Positions 3,531 to 53,907 of a stretch of DNA of 64,000 nt are shown here, piece by piece. The stretch's first letter is position 1. Every line of letters begins with the position of its first letter. The notes beneath the pieces are model-generated. The model was not told where the DNA came from and searched no databases. It saw nothing but the letters and a program-made list of their open reading frames with translations. This DNA comes from Opitutia bacterium. GTDB taxonomy: Bacteria > Verrucomicrobiota > Verrucomicrobiia > Opitutales > Opitutaceae. The stretch spans positions 434,001 to 498,000 of the forward strand of contig JACPIT010000001.1 in assembly GCA_016187945.1 (NCBI GenBank), given 5' to 3'. A program made the translations under genes and the position numbers.

Positions 3531-3929
3531 ATGTCTCGCCCTCCGAAGAGCGACCCAGCCTTCGAAATCACCTTCTTCGAGTCCGTCCACCGCCGCTGTC
3601 CGAGCTACGCCGAAGTTATCGAGCTGCTCGGCGGACTCTACACCAAGACCGGCCGCATTTCCGACGGCCTGCGCATGGACCGCAAGCTGGTGAAACTCCA
3701 GCCGACCAACGCCACCGCGCACTACAACCTCGCGTGCAGCTTCGCGCTCAGCAACCGCCCGCTCGACGCGCTCGATACGCTCCGCGTCGCCTACAAGCTC
3801 GGCTACACCGACCACGAGTGGATGCGCCAGGACCCCGACCTCGCGAGCCTGAAGACCGACGCGCAGTTCCTGAAAATCCTCGCCGACGTCAAAGCCGCCG
3901 CCAAAGGCGCGAAGCCGAAACGGCGCTGA
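3531..3929 (+). CDS. Small TPR-repeat protein
   Basis: A 132-residue soluble protein that starts one base after the Fur-family stop codon. It contains a tetratricopeptide-type helical pair (YAEVIELLGGLYTKTGR, then NATAHYNLACSFALSN and a third helix pair around ALDTLRVAYKLGY). The C-terminus is basic (KGAKPKRR). There is no signal peptide. Such proteins act as protein-interaction scaffolds; no specific partner can be deduced. Cotranscription with the Fur-like regulator is likely from the spacing. A long inverted repeat follows the stop codon. Confidence 0.85.
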   Translation: MSRPPKSDPAFEITFFESVHRRCPSYAEVIELLGGLYTKTGRISDGLRMDRKLVKLQPTNATAHYNLACSFALSNRPLDALDTLRVAYKLGYTDHEWMRQDPDLASLKTDAQFLKILADVKAAAKGAKPKRR

Positions 3930-3935
3930 ATTCGC

Positions 3936-4053
3936 GAAGCTCCAAGCTCCAACATCAAAGCTCCAGAGAAACCCCAACACCCAAACGTCCAATCTACGTC
4001 GATCGTCGGACGCCTCCTTTTGGAGCTTGGATGTTGGAGCTTGGAGCTTTTCG
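3936..4053. repeat. Long inverted repeat between convergent genes
   Basis: Left arm 3936-3966 and right arm 4021-4053 are near-perfect reverse complements built on repeats of AAGCTCCAAGCTCC with one mismatch, separated by about 55 bp. It fills the space between the TPR gene and the 3' end of the M23 peptidase gene, so it could act as a bidirectional terminator. It is lower in GC than its surroundings. Confidence 0.75.
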
Positions 4054-4075
4054 CGCGTAGCGCAGGTTTTGCGCG

Positions 4076-5086
4076 TCACCGCGTCCCGAACAACTGCTCG
4101 ACGATCGTCCGCAAGTCTCCGCCGGGCGAATAACTGCCGCCGCGCACGCGCACCAGATCCTTGCAGCGATGCGCGCGCAGCACAGCCGCATCCGCCGACA
4201 CGACGCGCACCTCTCCCGCCCGCAGGCCGATCACTTCGTTCGCCGAGAGCGGCGTCCACGCGAACGGCAGACCGGTCGCGTTGCACGAGATTTCCCAGCC
4301 CGCGACGATTCCGCCGATCGGTTTGCGCAGCAGCGACGGGTAACGCCGCACGAAATCCGGCACGCGCAGCGTCGCCACGCGCAGCGTCACCACCGGACGC
4401 AGCTTGTCGAAATACTCCTGAAACGAATCGACGCGCCCCGTGCGCCACGCGCGCAGGAAATCCAGCGGATCGATGCCCATCAGGTTCATGCCGTTGAAAT
4501 CGCCGTGCTCGTTCCGGTTGCCGAATCGCCGCGCCGCATACCACGCCTCGAAATTGTCCGTCGCGCGCAGCCCGATCTCGAAATGCAGGTGCCCGCGCTC
4601 CTTCGGGATCGCGTAGCCGCCCGCGCTCCGGCCCATCAGCCCGATCGTCTGCCCTCGCTGCACGCGCGCGCCCGGCCGCACACCCGGCTCGATCCGCGCG
4701 AGGTGCGCATAGAGCGTGTAGACGGCCGGCGTCTGCTCCGGGTGTTCGATGACGACGTAGCGCCCGTAATTGCTCGAACCCGGCGACGTGCTCACGTGTT
4801 TCACCACGCCATCCATCGCCGCAAAAACCGGATCGGCCGGCTCGCCCCGCCGGTCGCGCGACGTCGGCTTGATGTCGAGCCCTTCGTGGAACTGCGAACC
4901 GCTGCTGCGCACGCAGCCGAACAAGCCCGACTCCGGATCGCCCGACACCGTCGGCTGCACAAATTCCTCGAGCCGCCCCGTCGTCCACGCCTTTTGCGGC
5001 GTCGGGAAAACGAGATCGACGCGCGCGTGCACCAGCGTCGCGACTGCGCCGGTCAACAAAAGAAGCGACATCCGCGCACGCTTCAT
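4076..5086 (-). CDS. Secreted M23-family metallopeptidase
   Basis: A 336-residue envelope protein of the LytM/M23 type, which cleaves or binds peptidoglycan cross-links. An N-terminal hydrophobic signal (MSLLLLTGAVATLVHA) is followed by a peptidase domain at about residues 60-180. The zinc ligands are visible: H67 and D71 in FHEGLDIKP and the HLH motif at 166-168 in GHLHFEIG; YAHL at 126-129 is also conserved. A C-terminal domain of about 160 residues has no recognised match. The start is the ATG at 5086; the longer frame upstream only runs through a palindromic repeat. It lies downstream of hemW and the lipoprotein gene on the same strand. With all metal ligands kept, it is probably an active enzyme rather than a degenerate LytM factor. 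Confidence 0.88.
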   Translation of the reverse strand: MKRARMSLLLLTGAVATLVHARVDLVFPTPQKAWTTGRLEEFVQPTVSGDPESGLFGCVRSSGSQFHEGLDIKPTSRDRRGEPADPVFAAMDGVVKHVSTSPGSSNYGRYVVIEHPEQTPAVYTLYAHLARIEPGVRPGARVQRGQTIGLMGRSAGGYAIPKERGHLHFEIGLRATDNFEAWYAARRFGNRNEHGDFNGMNLMGIDPLDFLRAWRTGRVDSFQEYFDKLRPVVTLRVATLRVPDFVRRYPSLLRKPIGGIVAGWEISCNATGLPFAWTPLSANEVIGLRAGEVRVVSADAAVLRAHRCKDLVRVRGGSYSPGGDLRTIVEQLFGTR

Positions 5087-5108
5087 CCGCGCGCGAACCA
5101 ATGTTCCT

Positions 5109-5182
5109 GTAGGAGCGGCTTTACGCCGCGATACGAACGCGGCATCCGCCTCGCACCAATCGCGGCGTAAAGCCGCTCCTAC
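5109..5182. repeat. GTAG-type palindromic repeat pair (family A)
   Basis: Two inverted units, GTAGGAGCGGCTTTACGCCG on the left and its reverse complement on the right, separated by about 27 bp. Each unit is GTAG followed by a GCGGC/GCCGC hairpin, the layout of REP elements handled by RAYT transposases. A second copy of the family lies at 34957-35034. Confidence 0.88.
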
Positions 5183-5215
5183 AAAGGATGCAGTGCCGGG
5201 TGTCATCGCGATCTT

Positions 5216-5854
5216 CTACTTCCGCGCCTTTCGTGCCGCCTCGGCCAGATCGGCGGACGTCCGCTTCAACCGCCCCACCAACGCCGGCAGCTCCTCGTCG
5301 GGTAATTCGACGAAGATCAGCATCACGCCGCCCTCGAGCGCCTGATCGATGCGTCGAGCGCCGACGAAACGATCGTTCAGTGCCAGGACGAGTCGCCGCC
5401 CGTTCGCCGTGACGGAAAGTCGGTAGAGATCGCGCGCCGCGGCACCGTTCAACTGCACGAGCAGGCAGCGGCCGAGTTCGACCTGCGCAATTTCGGCGTT
5501 GGCGATGTCGTATTCGACCACGACCGGCTTCGGCGCGACCGCGATCGTCACGCCGCTCTGCGGGAGCGTCACCGCCACGCCACTCTCGTCCGGCTTCGCT
5601 TCGAGATAAAACCGCGCCACGAGCGGCGCGTAGTCCTGCGTCGCCTCGTTCGGCGGCGTGCCGCAACCCGCGAGCGCGAAAACGATCGTCGCGAGCCCAA
5701 CCAACCACTGGAGGACCGAGCTCCGGCGAGGCCGCGAACGTGATTCGACACCGGACCGCCCCGCCGTCTGCGGCCTCGCCGGAGCTCGGCCCTCCACCTG
5801 AAACGAAAGATCCGCACGGCAGGCGCGATCTCGAATGGCGTGGAGCAACATCAT
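5216..5854 (-). CDS. Putative lipoprotein with repeat-extended N-terminus
   Basis: A 212-residue protein of unknown function. Its ATG at 5854 overlaps the hemW stop codon (ATGA), implying translational coupling. A hydrophobic stretch WLVGLATIVFALAGCG ends in a lipobox with Cys at residue 64, which predicts a lipidated envelope protein. The oddity is that about 49 residues precede this stretch, and residues of roughly 20-48 are encoded by an 88-bp palindromic repeat. A functional start could also be an internal alternative codon, but none has the normal short positively charged leader. The mature part has beta-rich character and a C-terminal basic helix (DLAEAARKARK). I do not recognise a family. 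Confidence 0.72.
   Translation of the reverse strand: MMLLHAIRDRACRADLSFQVEGRAPARPQTAGRSGVESRSRPRRSSVLQWLVGLATIVFALAGCGTPPNEATQDYAPLVARFYLEAKPDESGVAVTLPQSGVTIAVAPKPVVVEYDIANAEIAQVELGRCLLVQLNGAAARDLYRLSVTANGRRLVLALNDRFVGARRIDQALEGGVMLIFVELPDEELPALVGRLKRTSADLAEAARKARK
5709..5796. repeat. Palindromic element in coding sequence (family B, copy 1)
   Basis: The 27-bp arms 5709-5735 and 5770-5796 are reverse complements with one mismatch and share the core CCGAGCTCCGGCGAGGC. The element lies in frame within the 5' part of the lipoprotein gene, between the coupled start and the signal sequence. The same family is found in frame in the methyltransferase gene at 16829-16907. Confidence 0.88.
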
Positions 5855-7179
5855 CGGCCCGCAGCTTTTGAGTCCGCCGAAAAAGCTTCAAGCACTTCCG
5901 CGCCCACCGCGTCCGCGAGCAGCCGACCGCGCGACGTCAACCGGATGCGTCCCTCGGGCGAGTCGGCGAGCATGCCTTCCGCGATCAGCTTCGGCAGGAA
6001 GTCGTGCAAGTTTTCCCACGGCGCACTCGGAAATTTCTTCCGCAGCTCCGGCAGCGACACGCCCTCGTTCATCCGCAGGCCGAAGATCACGCTGTCGGCG
6101 GCGAGCAGCTCCGGCGCGAGCGCCGTGCGATCCGCCGTCGCGCGCCGGCCGGCCGCCACGTCCGCGTGCCACTGCGTGAGGTCCGGTGGATTGCTCGCGC
6201 GCCAACCCGCGAACTGCGACGCGCCCGACGGACCGAAGCCGATCCACTCGTGCATGCGCCAGGTGTTCAGGTTGTGCGCGCACGCGTGGCCCGGTCGCGC
6301 GAAGTTCGACACCTCGTATTGCGCGAAGCCGACCTCGGCGAGGTAGTCCCACGTGCGCAGGTAGAACGCCGCCTCCTTCTCCGGATCGAGCTTCACCTTG
6401 CCCTGCGAGAGCTTCACCCACAGCGCCGTGTCCTCCTCGAAGGTCAGGCAATACGTCGACAAGTGGTCCGGTGCGAGCCGCACGAGTTCGTCGAGGTCCG
6501 CGCGCCACTGTTCTTCGCTCTGATTTGGTAGCGCGAACATCAGGTCCATGTTCACGCTCGGAAAACCCGCCGCGCGGATCAGGTCGTAGGCGCGATAAAC
6601 TTGCTTCGGCGTGTGCTGGCGGCCGAGTGCGTCGAGCAGCGCTTCGTTGAAACTCTGCACGCCGAGCGAAATCCGTGTGACGCCCAGCGCGCGCAGCACC
6701 GCCAGCCGCTCCGCCGTGACCGTCGCCGGCGCCATTTCGACACTCCACTCCGCCGGCGCACCGCCGCAAAATTCCACCATCGCGCGTCCGAGTTGCTCGA
6801 GTTCGCCGGCGCGCAGCAGCCCCGGTGTGCCGCCGCCCCAGAACGCCGTGTCGACGCGACGGCGCGTAGCGGAATTCGTAAGAATTTCGCTTCTCCGCGA
6901 AGGTTCATCGTGCGAAAGCCTCACGGCTTCCGCTACAGTGCCCTCGCGCGATAGCACCGTTGTTCGCCCCAAATCCACCAGCGCCATCTCGTCCCGGATC
7001 GCCGCCAGATAGCGTGGCACGGCATCCGCCTTCGGCACGGTCTGGTAGAACGCGCAGAAATCGCACGTCGTCGCGCAAAACGGCACATGCACGTAAACGC
7101 CCAGCGCCGGAGCAGACGCGGCGGGCGCCGCGCCGGCTCCGCTCGGAGACTTTTCTTGCCCTGCGGGGAACCCGGCCAT
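5851..7179 (-). CDS. hemW: Radical SAM protein of the HemW/HemN-like family
   Basis: A 442-residue radical-SAM protein. The cluster motif CATTCDFC places ligands at C35, C39 and C42 after the strand GVYVHVPF; WGGGTPGLL, ISLGVQSFN and the C-terminal HemN domain follow. HemW-type proteins are haem chaperones rather than true coproporphyrinogen dehydrogenases, and the motif here fits that group better. An extra segment of about 30 residues at 73-107, between the cluster loop and the GGGTP motif, is encoded by a GTAG-type repeat pair; in E. coli HemW that spacing is about 30 residues shorter. The start is the ATG at 7179. The stop overlaps the start of the lipoprotein gene. Confidence 0.88.
   Translation of the reverse strand: MAGFPAGQEKSPSGAGAAPAASAPALGVYVHVPFCATTCDFCAFYQTVPKADAVPRYLAAIRDEMALVDLGRTTVLSREGTVAEAVRLSHDEPSRRSEILTNSATRRRVDTAFWGGGTPGLLRAGELEQLGRAMVEFCGGAPAEWSVEMAPATVTAERLAVLRALGVTRISLGVQSFNEALLDALGRQHTPKQVYRAYDLIRAAGFPSVNMDLMFALPNQSEEQWRADLDELVRLAPDHLSTYCLTFEEDTALWVKLSQGKVKLDPEKEAAFYLRTWDYLAEVGFAQYEVSNFARPGHACAHNLNTWRMHEWIGFGPSGASQFAGWRASNPPDLTQWHADVAAGRRATADRTALAPELLAADSVIFGLRMNEGVSLPELRKKFPSAPWENLHDFLPKLIAEGMLADSPEGRIRLTSRGRLLADAVGAEVLEAFSADSKAAGR
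6866..6935. repeat. GTAG-type palindromic pair inserted in hemW
   Basis: The left unit GTAGCGGAATTCGTAAGAAT and the right unit ending GGCTTCCGCTAC face each other; each forms its own hairpin (GAATTC-type arms on the left, GAAAGCC/GGCTTCC on the right). The 70-bp element is fully inside the hemW reading frame and adds no stop codon. Confidence 0.82.
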
Positions 7180-16619: not shown

Positions 16620-17711
16620 ATGGACCTCAACTCCCTCGATTGGGAAGTGCTCGACCGGCTGCGCGAGACGTTCCTCACGAACGCGCGCAGCGAGGGCCCG
16701 TATTGGCACACGATCACCGACCTCGAGGCCTACGATCTCACCTACGCCGAGCGCATCGGTTGGAAATGGGACGCCGTGCTGCGCGAGCTCAAGCTCCGCA
16801 ACTGGACGCCGCTTTCGCCCGCCGCACGTGGAGGGCCGAGCTCCCGCGAGGCCACCGGCAGCGGGCGTAGCGACACGTTCGCAGCCTCGCGGGAGCTCGG
16901 CCCTCCAGGTCAGAACGCGATCACCGTTTTCGATTGGGGCTGCGGCAGCGGCATCGCCGGGCGGCGCGTCGTCGAGTTTCCCGGCGTGGAGAACGTCGCG
17001 CGGCTCGTGCTGCACGATCACTCGGCGCTCGCGGTCGAGTTCGCCGAACACCGCGCGCGAAAATCTTTCCCGTCGGTCGCCGTCGAACGCGCCAGCTACC
17101 GCTTCCTGCAAGAGGGCGTCATCGACGTCCTCGTTGTCAGCCACGTGCTCAACGAACTCGACGCCGTCGGCCGCGCCGAACTCACGGCGCTCCTCGCCCG
17201 CGCGCAAACCGTCCTCTGGGTCGAGCCCGGCACGCACGAAGTCGGACGCGCGCTCGTCGATTGGCGCGAGCAGGCGCGCACCGCCGGCTTCAACGTCGTC
17301 GCCCCCTGCCCGCACGACGCCGCGTGCGGTCTGCTCGCCGCCGACCGCGAGCGCGATTGGTGTCACTTCTTCGCCGCGCCGCCGCCGGAGATTTTCGCCA
17401 ACTCCGAGTGGGTGAAATTCGGCCAGCGCGCCGGCATCGACCTGCGCTCGCTGCCCTACAGTTTCCTCGTGCTCGACCGCCGCGCGTGGACGCAACCCGC
17501 CGACGCCTCGCGCATCCTCGGCGAACCGCGCGTCTACAAGGGCTACGCAAAAATCTTCAACTGCTCCGCGCGCGGCGTCGAAGAGCTGATGCTCCAGCAA
17601 CGCGCCGACAAGGAGCTGTTCAAATCGCTCAAGCGCGCGAGCGGTCCGCTCGTCTATCGCTGGACGCGCGACGGCGACCGCATCAACGCCGCCGAGCGCC
17701 TCCTGCGCTGA
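16620..17711 (+). CDS. Rsm22-like SAM-dependent methyltransferase
   Basis: A 363-residue class I methyltransferase of the group that includes mitochondrial Rsm22, associated with the small ribosomal subunit. The SAM-binding motif DWGCGSGIAG is at residues 105-114, HVLNELD follows, then the family hallmarks WVEPGTHEVGR, CPHDAACGL, DWCHFF and SYSFLVLDR-like LPYSFLVLDRR. The ATG at 16620 gives the family N-terminus. Residues of about 69-97, just before the SAM motif, are encoded by a perfect palindromic repeat of family B that adds about 27 residues without breaking the frame. It has no operon partner; a hairpin terminator follows. The substrate is probably rRNA or a ribosomal protein, by family inference. 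Confidence 0.85.
   Translation: MDLNSLDWEVLDRLRETFLTNARSEGPYWHTITDLEAYDLTYAERIGWKWDAVLRELKLRNWTPLSPAARGGPSSREATGSGRSDTFAASRELGPPGQNAITVFDWGCGSGIAGRRVVEFPGVENVARLVLHDHSALAVEFAEHRARKSFPSVAVERASYRFLQEGVIDVLVVSHVLNELDAVGRAELTALLARAQTVLWVEPGTHEVGRALVDWREQARTAGFNVVAPCPHDAACGLLAADRERDWCHFFAAPPPEIFANSEWVKFGQRAGIDLRSLPYSFLVLDRRAWTQPADASRILGEPRVYKGYAKIFNCSARGVEELMLQQRADKELFKSLKRASGPLVYRWTRDGDRINAAERLLR
16829..16907. repeat. Palindromic element in coding sequence (family B, copy 2)
   Basis: Two 24-bp arms (16829-16852 and 16884-16907) that are exact reverse complements, with the core GGGCCGAGCTCCCGCGAGGC, separated by 31 bp. It lies in frame inside the methyltransferase gene just before the SAM motif. 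Confidence 0.92.
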
Positions 17712-29400: not shown

Positions 29401-29985
29401 ATGTCCGCGCCCCTCACCGTCTACGCCTACGCGAAATGTTCCACCTGTCGCGACGCCGCCCAATGGCTGCGCGCGCACCGCGTCGAGTTCGTCGAACGGC
29501 CGATCTACGAGCAAGCGCCGGCCGTCGCCGAACTGCGCCGCATGCTGGCGTTCCAAGGCGGCAACTTGCGCCGGCTCTTCAACACCTCCGGCATCCAATA
29601 CCGCGAGCGCGGTCTCGCCGCAAAGCTGCCGGCAATGGCCGAGTCCGATGCGCTCGCCTTGCTCGCGTCTGACGGGCGGCTGGTGAAACGCCCTTTCCTG
29701 CTCGGCGAACGCGTCGGCCTGCTCGGCTTCGACGCCGAGGCGTGGACGGCGGCGCTGACGAAAGTAAAGATCCCCGGAGCAAGCTCCGGGGCATTTGAAA
29801 AGACCTCTGCAAACCCGTTCGAGCCCCATGCAATCCACACTCAATCCCGTTCTGCCGACCAAGCCGAAGCAAGCTTCAGGGTATCGGACCCACAGCGAAT
29901 GATCCCGTTCTGCCGACCAAGCCGAAGCAAGCTTCAGGGTATCGGACCCACAGCGAATGAAATGAGTCGCCGCGGCGCGACATAG
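29401..29985 (+). CDS. ArsC/Spx-family (arsenate reductase-like) protein with repeat-encoded tail
   Basis: The first 120 residues or so are a complete ArsC/YffB-like thioredoxin fold protein. It has CSTC at 13-16 (YAYAKCSTCRDA), the helix AELRRMLAF and the conserved RPFLLGERVGLLGFDAEAW near the end. Family members are about 115-120 residues. Here the frame continues for about 70 more residues through a hairpin and a 58-bp tandem duplication, so the tail has no family counterpart. Because 58 is not a multiple of three, the two repeat copies are read in different frames, which argues that the tail is accidental. The enzyme may reduce a thiol substrate; arsenate is not proven, and no ars genes are nearby. 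Confidence 0.82.
   Translation: MSAPLTVYAYAKCSTCRDAAQWLRAHRVEFVERPIYEQAPAVAELRRMLAFQGGNLRRLFNTSGIQYRERGLAAKLPAMAESDALALLASDGRLVKRPFLLGERVGLLGFDAEAWTAALTKVKIPGASSGAFEKTSANPFEPHAIHTQSRSADQAEASFRVSDPQRMIPFCRPSRSKLQGIGPTANEMSRRGAT
29772..29791 (+). repeat. Perfect GC-rich hairpin
   Basis: CCCCGGAGC, loop AA, GCTCCGGGG. It lies in frame at the point where the ArsC-like family similarity ends. Without the tail it would be a natural transcription-end hairpin. Confidence 0.7.
29844..29959. repeat. 58-bp exact tandem duplication
   Basis: 29844-29901 and 29902-29959 are identical. Each copy contains AAGCCGAAGCAAGCTTCAGG and CGGACCCACAGCGAATG, itself a small inverted repeat about AAGCTT. Confidence 0.92.
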
Positions 29986-30076
29986 GGCCGGTTTCCAACC
30001 GGCCCCGTCGGAAGCTCGCTCGCGCATCACGCCCGCAAACGTCCAAGCCACCAGGCCGGTCGGAGACCGGCCCTAC
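29982..30076. repeat. GTAG-type palindromic repeat pair
   Basis: ATAGGGCCGGTTTCCAACCG at the left and a unit ending GAGACCGGCCCTAC at the right, each a perfect hairpin (GGCCGGTT/AACCGGCC and GGCCGGTC/GACCGGCC). Confidence 0.85.
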
Positions 30077-30102
30077 CGCTCGCCACGAACGTCGCGCCGG
30101 GA

Positions 30103-34933: not shown

Positions 34934-34956
34934 CCCAAGCCCGCGCCGCGTGCATT

Positions 34957-35034
34957 GCAGGAACGGCTTTACGCCGCGATCGGTTCGATGCCGACGCCGC
35001 GCTCGAACGTATCGCGGCGTAAAGCCGCTCCTAC
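34957..35034. repeat. Palindromic repeat pair (family A)
   Basis: CGGCTTTACGCCGCGAT at the left and ATCGCGGCGTAAAGCCGCTC followed by CTAC at the right: the same family as 5109-5182. It lies between convergent genes. Confidence 0.85.
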
Positions 35035-35070
35035 AAAAACCAACCGGCCGGCGCGACCGGTAGCCGTCGG

Positions 35071-42392: not shown

Positions 42393-42414
42393 GGTCGGTG
42401 CGGCGGCGTTGGGG

Positions 42415-42470
42415 GTGGAGCGCGTTGACCTCAACGCGCTGAGCCGGTTGAGGTCAACCGGCTCCACCTT
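42415..42470. repeat. Palindromic repeat pair, GTGG type
   Basis: GTGGAGCGCGTTGACCTCAA at the left and a unit GAGCCGGTTGAGGTCAACCG ending in CTCCAC at the right. Each half is a hairpin. A related copy lies at 52158-52215. It separates the Lrp-type gene from the aminotransferase gene. Confidence 0.85.
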
Positions 42471-50799: not shown

Positions 50800-50893
50800 G
50801 TAGCGCCGGTCTCTGACCGGCGAAATTCGACCAACGCTCGCGTTTCGAATCCACGCGCAACGTTCAACTCCGCCGGTCGAAGACCGGCGCTAC
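50800..50893. repeat. GTAG palindromic repeat pair between hemC and hemD
   Basis: GTAGCGCCGGTCTCTGACCG at the left and CGCCGGTCGAAGACCGGCGC then TAC at the right, each a hairpin (CGCCGGTC/GACCGGCG). The same family recurs at 53816-53907. Confidence 0.9.
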
Positions 50894-53815: not shown

Positions 53816-53907
53816 GTGGCGCCGGTCTCCGACCGGCGAAAACAGACTGGCGTGAGCAAACGAAGTCCACGCCAACGAGCGATCCGCCGGTCGCAGACCG
53901 GCGCTAC
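53816..53907. repeat. Palindromic repeat pair (CGCCGGTC family)
   Basis: GTGGCGCCGGTCTCCGACCG at the left and CCGCCGGTCGCAGACCGGCG then CTAC at the right: the same family as 50800-50893. It lies between convergent genes. Confidence 0.88.

Follow-up and report, generated by a model that had tools for sequence, protein, structure and literature searches.

Within the window analysed here, a stretch of 64,000 nucleotides from the genome of an Opitutia bacterium of the family Opitutaceae, the gene for an Rsm22-like methyltransferase carries a long palindrome inside its coding sequence, which raises the question of what kind of element this is, how it may have come to lie there and what it means for the protein. 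The original prediction was that a palindromic element had been inserted in frame, adding about 27 residues directly before the SAM-binding motif, and it likened the element to the palindromic elements of Rickettsia (RPE). The palindrome itself is real: a first REP-like arm at 16829..16852 (+ strand), read as GGPSSREA, and a second, inverted arm at 16884..16907 (- strand), which in the gene becomes ASRELGPP, form perfect 24-nt inverted repeats around a 31-nt spacer (16853..16883, + strand). Folded as single-stranded DNA, the 79-nt element at 16829-16907 reaches -41.9 kcal/mol, where shuffled sequences average -19.55 (z -9.27) and none of 200 is as good.

The host gene (16620..17711, + strand, 363 amino acids) is open through the insertion, running from the ATG at 16620 over 363 codons with no stop and no frameshift, and its product matches the Rsm22 family PF09243 (75.2 bits, cut-off 23). 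The element corresponds to about residues 70-96, with the predicted peptide GGPSSREATGSGR...ASRELGPP, and eight codons downstream of it lies the motif DWGCGSG, which we take to be the SAM-binding motif. The position before this motif and the preserved frame are thus borne out by the open reading frame, but the figure of about 27 residues describes the element itself; relative to the genes of two related genomes, G001 and G007, the net gain is 33 codons, six above the element, so that 20 nt outside the element are also extra. Inspection by eye revealed no clean target duplication around the insert. Nei-Gojobori estimates of dN/dS over 330 codons are 0.137 for the window gene against G001 and 0.163 against G007, far below 1, and the gene is still under purifying selection; as both exceed the 0.089 obtained between G001 and G007, constraint may have eased slightly on the branch leading to the window gene.

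Comparison with relatives identifies the element as an addition. An orthologue of the methyltransferase was found in 52 of the 95 genomes searched, the source genome included, and in most relatives the match stops at about query residue 65-68 and restarts at about 100-103. The element is missing in all 29 fetched relatives, no aligned orthologue carries equivalent residues at this point, and other copies exist in the genome, as the original prediction had anticipated. The linker concerned measures 42 residues in the window protein and 8-19 residues in 77 of 78 readable orthologues (from 80 named loci, the top 80 among 251 relatives that were found; a motif script could read 78 of them). The one remaining orthologue, from G005 (L196/L077), has a linker of 72 residues in which two other palindromic pieces were recognised by eye: a repeat TGTCATCGCGAG...CTCGCAATGACA and, in frame, a palindrome GGTGGAGCG...CGCTCCACC that resembles the one at 42414-42468 of the window. 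The linker of the Rsm22-like enzyme has therefore been struck by different palindromes in two species.

The element belongs to a dispersed repeat family. A search of the source genome (G000; 5.47 Mb in 16 contigs) with the arm gave 37 + 34 = 71 matches at up to 3 mismatches, and 0 + 0 with the reversed pattern as control. At up to 6 mismatches, 45 places were counted within 37 fetched stretches and the window, of which 30 are inverted pairs (64-89 nt) and 15 are single arms; four of the latter make up a single locus around a transposase gene, two with six mismatches were taken for chance, three are degenerate or uncertain (two of these with a decayed partner nearby, by eye) and six are clean. 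Conservation over 60 arm ends extends through a block of 26 nt with the consensus TGGAGGGCCGAGCTCCYGCGAGGCCG and sharp ends, beyond which the sequence is background except for being A-rich in the three flanking bases. Its outer end is TGGAG, not GTAG, and degenerate tags such as GTGG have been described for REPs (PMC3733652); we therefore label the family REP/REPIN-like rather than a member of the GTAG family, and refer to its repeat as the GGAG arm. Folding, computed for just the two copies in the window, gave z values of -9.27 and -6.97, and the hairpin inside a single arm (4 bp, a 2x2 mismatch, 2 bp and a 4-nt loop; z -0.55 to 0.20) is no better than shuffles. The arm is free of stops in all six frames. 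The GGAG family was found in 10 of the 95 genomes, the source genome included.

The window holds palindromes of further kinds. Those at 5108-5183 and 34955-35036 belong to a canonical GTAG-tagged REP family (GTAGGAGCGGCTTTACGCCGCGA), whose GTAG-GAGCGGC arm is matched 197 + 199 times across the genome (control 1 + 0), and the one at 42414-42468 belongs to a TGGAGCG family. Inverted pairs around GCCGGTC...GACCGGC at 29971-30087, 50800-50893 and 53816-53907, some with GTAG at one end, are possibly another REP family, and 3918-4068 contains inverted, partly repeated sequence of the GAAGCTCCAAGCTCCAACATC type.

The GGAG arms are associated with a gene for a REP-associated tyrosine transposase (RAYT). 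This ORF of 156 amino acids (G000:C12:569763-570230) matches NF047646 with 87 bits against a cut-off of 80 and PF01797 (Y1_Tnp) with 26.4 bits against 23, and its sole match among PDB sequences is TnpArep 4er8 (E 1.3e-11). In the fetched locus (L100, ORF 3764-4234) it lies between four GGAG-family arms at 3658, 3704, 4279 and 4325, and in G001 a RAYT 74% identical to it likewise lies between arms of this family. The source genome has 10 RAYT-like matches in all; the TGGAGCG family lies on both sides of the RAYT at C9:498082, and the GTAG-GAGCGGC family on both sides of the one at C15:188101. A probe, GCGCCGGTC with 2 mismatches, proved far too loose near the RAYT genes and was discarded.

How often copies lie within genes was assessed from codon-usage scores on both flanks, Pfam matches and orthologue checks. 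Some copies do lie in frame inside genes, as foreseen, yet most are extragenic: 7 of the 45 places are in genes or at gene starts, all in open frames, and the other 38, several of them near gene starts, were not called intragenic by codon scores and Pfam. Full pairs occur in the Rsm22-like gene, at a lipoprotein start (window 5709-5796) and in an OGG-type DNA glycosylase (C12:648912), between OGG_N (35.3 bits) and HhH-GPD (30.4 bits). Single arms occur in a fused E1 dehydrogenase (C10:239218, between the Pfam matches E1_dh and Transket_pyr), a tricorn-like protease (C2:364321, between the propeller and Tricorn_C1), UvrA (C6:353111) and alanyl-tRNA synthetase (AlaRS; C7:75927, near the end of tRNA-synt_2c). 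The identification of UvrA rests on a piece of 480 amino acids that scores 448 bits with TIGR00630, under the full-length cut-off of 729.8, and that of AlaRS on tRNA-synt_2c and tRNA_SAD. Among the clean places, genes hold four of the six singles but three of the 30 pairs (Fisher P 0.0076, with the classes drawn after looking). Ten places where, by eye, the coding side starts past the element or where the ORF has no Pfam support (five ORFs were scanned) were not counted as intragenic: C9:285185, C8:88695, C10:14450, C6:316131, C12:582252, C6:97230, C1:234296, C6:309865, C7:95070 and C6:200819.

Among the other intragenic places, orthologues were compared for the single arms in UvrA, AlaRS, E1 and the tricorn-like protease of the source genome. 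GGPSSREA was absent at the UvrA site from all 13 aligned relatives (27 had a match), at the AlaRS site from all 11 (15 had a match) and at the E1 site from all 8 (17 had a match), and the tricorn insert was missing in both readable homologues (five tried of 11 fetched). At the corresponding place in UvrA, G005 encodes GGADSRE, a similar peptide whose DNA shows 6 mismatches relative to the arm. As a separate observation, the UvrA (L143) and E1 (L114) linkers and those of relatives among L152-L159 and L180-L187 contain in-frame residues resembling simple repeats (IENPKSKIEN, QPSALSSQ-type) that vary between genus-mates, and it seems that these linkers are occupied by repeats of a second kind as well.

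The copy at 5709..5796 (- strand), which had been described as a second in-frame insertion of the same family, is real and is in frame by the ORF, but it may precede the true start and so need not be inside a translated gene. It is 88 nt long with 32-nt arms that are 91% complementary, reads EGRAPARP...RSSVLQ and lies before the signal peptide of a lipoprotein-like ORF of 212 amino acids (5216..5854, - strand) that gave no Pfam or NCBIfam match at E 0.001. The ATG of this ORF overlaps the stop of a HemW-like gene (5851..7179, - strand; TIGR00539 210.4 bits against a cut-off of 205.4). In G001 and G007 the lipoprotein ATG also overlaps the HemW stop and the signal peptide follows directly (DNA read by eye); the window retains this ATG, and 19 codons and then the element separate it from the hydrophobic stretch, in an ORF that stays open to the lipobox. 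Because the copy precedes the hydrophobic stretch, it may lie outside the translated part, and a downstream TTG could serve as the start; many N-terminal REPs may be extragenic, according to the text of an earlier survey (PMC3733652).

An extragenic location also prevails in G057, a genome of another genus of the same family, where the arm has 77 + 78 matches at up to 2 mismatches and forms 53 perfect pairs. Of the 50 pairs examined, 46 are exactly 81 nt long, two precede a gene start and none has an in-frame coding signal on both sides, by a codon model trained on the same stretches, so that weak coding cases could be missed. No cognate RAYT was found among the matches listed for G057, the best being 33% identical to the C12 RAYT.

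The single arms found inside genes share a reading frame. In three genus-mates, all seven that were found have the same strand and frame, giving GGPSSREA or near variants: beside the four of the source genome these are GGSSSRET in the UvrA of G006, GGPNSSEA between the lipoyl and E3-binding domains of the G006 E2 acyltransferase, and GGPSSREA before Met_synt_B12 (B12-binding/Met_synt_B12) in the methionine synthase of G012 (places L375, L376 and L377). The singles from relatives were drawn from eight loci, one for each of eight other genomes, the G001 locus being the RAYT locus, together with one extra G006 place, and their coding status was judged from the open frame, GC content by codon position and Pfam. 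If six frames are equally likely, the chance of seven out of seven is 6 x (1/6)^7 = 2.1e-5, for a pattern noticed post hoc. Two doubtful cases that read differently were left out of the seven: L068, a single arm with 3 mismatches in the TonB receptor barrel of G031 (EDRASERP), and L066, one at the start of a PP-loop gene of G039; with L068 the count becomes 7/8, and with both 7/9.

The three pairs in genes or at gene starts (Rsm22-like, OGG-like and lipoprotein) use three different frames, as by chance, so the bias is limited to singles; a test pooling pairs and singles was rejected, since in any full pair the first arm is necessarily read as sense. Selection seems to favour the GGPSSREA frame for single arms, which would account for the bias, and at a guess the singles derive from pairs, as the C2:364321 arm is followed by bases resembling a REPIN spacer. 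Among the papers listed by literature searches, beyond whose reach supplementary files lay, there was no earlier report of a single-arm frame bias.

The AlaRS linker shows that one site can hold repeats of several kinds. In six of the ten genomes read (10 of 14 fetched loci were readable) it contains REP-like sequences of three kinds: the GGAG arm in the source genome, GTAGGGCGAGTTCTCCGAACGAGCC (inverted) in G003 and, with 4 differences, in G005 and G006, and GTGGGAGCGAGCTTGCTCGCGA in both G007 and G004; the linkers of the other four genomes have none of the four arms tested. Two of these arm patterns were themselves taken from AlaRS linkers, so that their matches there are by construction; as to their repeat status, the GTGG one recurs at L122 and L163 (both G007) and the GTAG one at L304 (source genome) and L375 (G006). 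G005 and G006 may share one ancestral insertion, and likewise G004 and G007. A reading of the AlaRS arm as a clean insertion of eight residues was rejected, because the linkers of relatives are similar in length and several are filled by other REP-like sequences.

We consider it very probable that these observations have a single explanation. In it, the 79-nt element is a REPIN-like unit, two inverted 26-nt REP-like arms around a variable spacer, that is most likely mobilised in trans as a single-stranded hairpin by the C12 RAYT, if the analogy with TnpA_REP holds (as outlined in PMC8266576). One copy would have landed in a length-tolerant linker just before DWGCGSG of the methyltransferase and, its net length being a multiple of three, would be translated as a linker rich in G, P, S, A, R and E and be tolerated; since all six frames of the arm are free of stops, copies of a net multiple of three are translatable. 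Selection would then retain those inserts that sit in linkers, the insert being probably neutral, and tolerance would be owed to the sites being linkers.

A different ending of the same history is conceivable, in which the insert harms the methyltransferase, by misfolding or by forming a stable hairpin in the mRNA, and the gene is on its way to being lost, its frame being open by transient accident. The dN/dS values of the window gene, higher than that between G001 and G007, fit such decay, as do the very stable hairpin and the failure to find an orthologue in 43 of the 95 genomes (10 of the same family, 33 of other families of the order). Set against these are 363 codons with neither stop nor frameshift, dN/dS values that are still far below 1, and six other genes of the source genome, AlaRS and UvrA among them, that carry the GGAG family in open frames; we regard decay as unlikely. 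The notion that the palindrome arose by chance or is an artefact of assembly, for which no supporting point was found, has a negligible probability, and as far as chance is concerned the counts refute it: beside the 71 genomic matches with none for the reversed control and the occurrence in 10 of 95 genomes, the window has 13 perfect inverted 20-mers within 120 nt, all its palindromes taken together, whereas 18 of 20 windows simulated with a first-order Markov model have none and the remaining two have 4 and 1.

An RPE-like or CGTC-type coding palindrome that spreads without a RAYT would lead to the same outcome, since both are described as in-frame palindromes in unrelated protein genes (PMC10969869, PMC3733652). 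However, the GGAG family flanks a RAYT gene in two genomes and most of its copies are extragenic, whereas CGTC repeats have no association with transposase genes in the account consulted (PMC3733652), and we judge this origin very improbable. RPE, as described, are about 150 bp long with a conserved peptide, and no link to RAYT is mentioned in that description (PMC10969869), whereas the present elements are RAYT-linked and about 80 bp long. Their lengths of 64-89 nt, differing spacers and location in or at the starts of genes in 7 of 45 places also set them apart, as judged by the RPE description only. A Rickettsia-type element is accordingly not supported; what is present is a REP/REPIN-like family with a flanked RAYT gene and mostly extragenic copies.

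The REPIN-like reading can be placed in its lineage through Opitutus terrae, which we take to belong to the same family as the source genome. REPs lying wholly within ORFs are recorded for this verrucomicrobial species, where GTAG repeats of this kind are most numerous, and for Rickettsia conorii, where the CGTC ones are (PMC3733652). The phenomenon is therefore already known in the lineage, where a comparable system has been published. According to the same text, intragenic REP dimers or groups encode 20-30 residues, both uvrA genes of O. terrae are hit twice, tRNA synthetases are targets in other species, different REPs lie at about the same recB site in two Xanthomonas species, and flexible linkers and loops are a possible cause of tolerance (PMC3733652). 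The present family is similar in having copies within ORFs, in its 20-30 or so residues for a dimer, in its uvrA and tRNA synthetase targets and in the occurrence of different REPs at one site; it differs by the single-arm frame bias shown here, for which Additional file 3 of that paper may hold comparable data. The word GGAG does not occur in the main text of that paper, figures aside, and a text search for GGAG, RAYT and REP found no paper.

With REPIN/RAYT systems, as characterised in the accounts available to us (PMC3116915, PMC2817692, PMC8266576), the family shares inverted doublets of short repeats that are dispersed and form a long hairpin, and a RAYT flanked by its own repeats; it is also mainly extragenic (38 of 45 places in the source genome and all 50 G057 pairs examined). 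It differs in its (T)GGAG outer end, most described ends being GTAG, in having tens and not hundreds of copies, the usual REP number being given as more than 100 per genome (PMC2817692), and in that some copies are intragenic. To what was known, the present analysis adds a family without the GTAG tag together with its RAYT, the frame bias of single arms, and the reuse of the AlaRS and Rsm22-like linkers by more than one family.

When mobile repeats turn into protein sequence, selfish DNA gains a direct way of changing proteins. With the family, its likely transposase, empty sites in close relatives and repeated linker hits at hand, tolerance and selection become testable against each other in AlaRS, UvrA and Rsm22-like enzymes. 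We would tentatively go further and suggest, as an idea that could well prove wrong, that the REP families of this genus are a recurring supply of linker peptides to core enzymes, with different families colonising the same interdomain linkers from species to species and single arms persisting in genes only in the strand and frame of GGPSSREA, which would make a flexible, hydrophilic linker. If that were true, coding space would be a selected niche for REP halves and not their graveyard.
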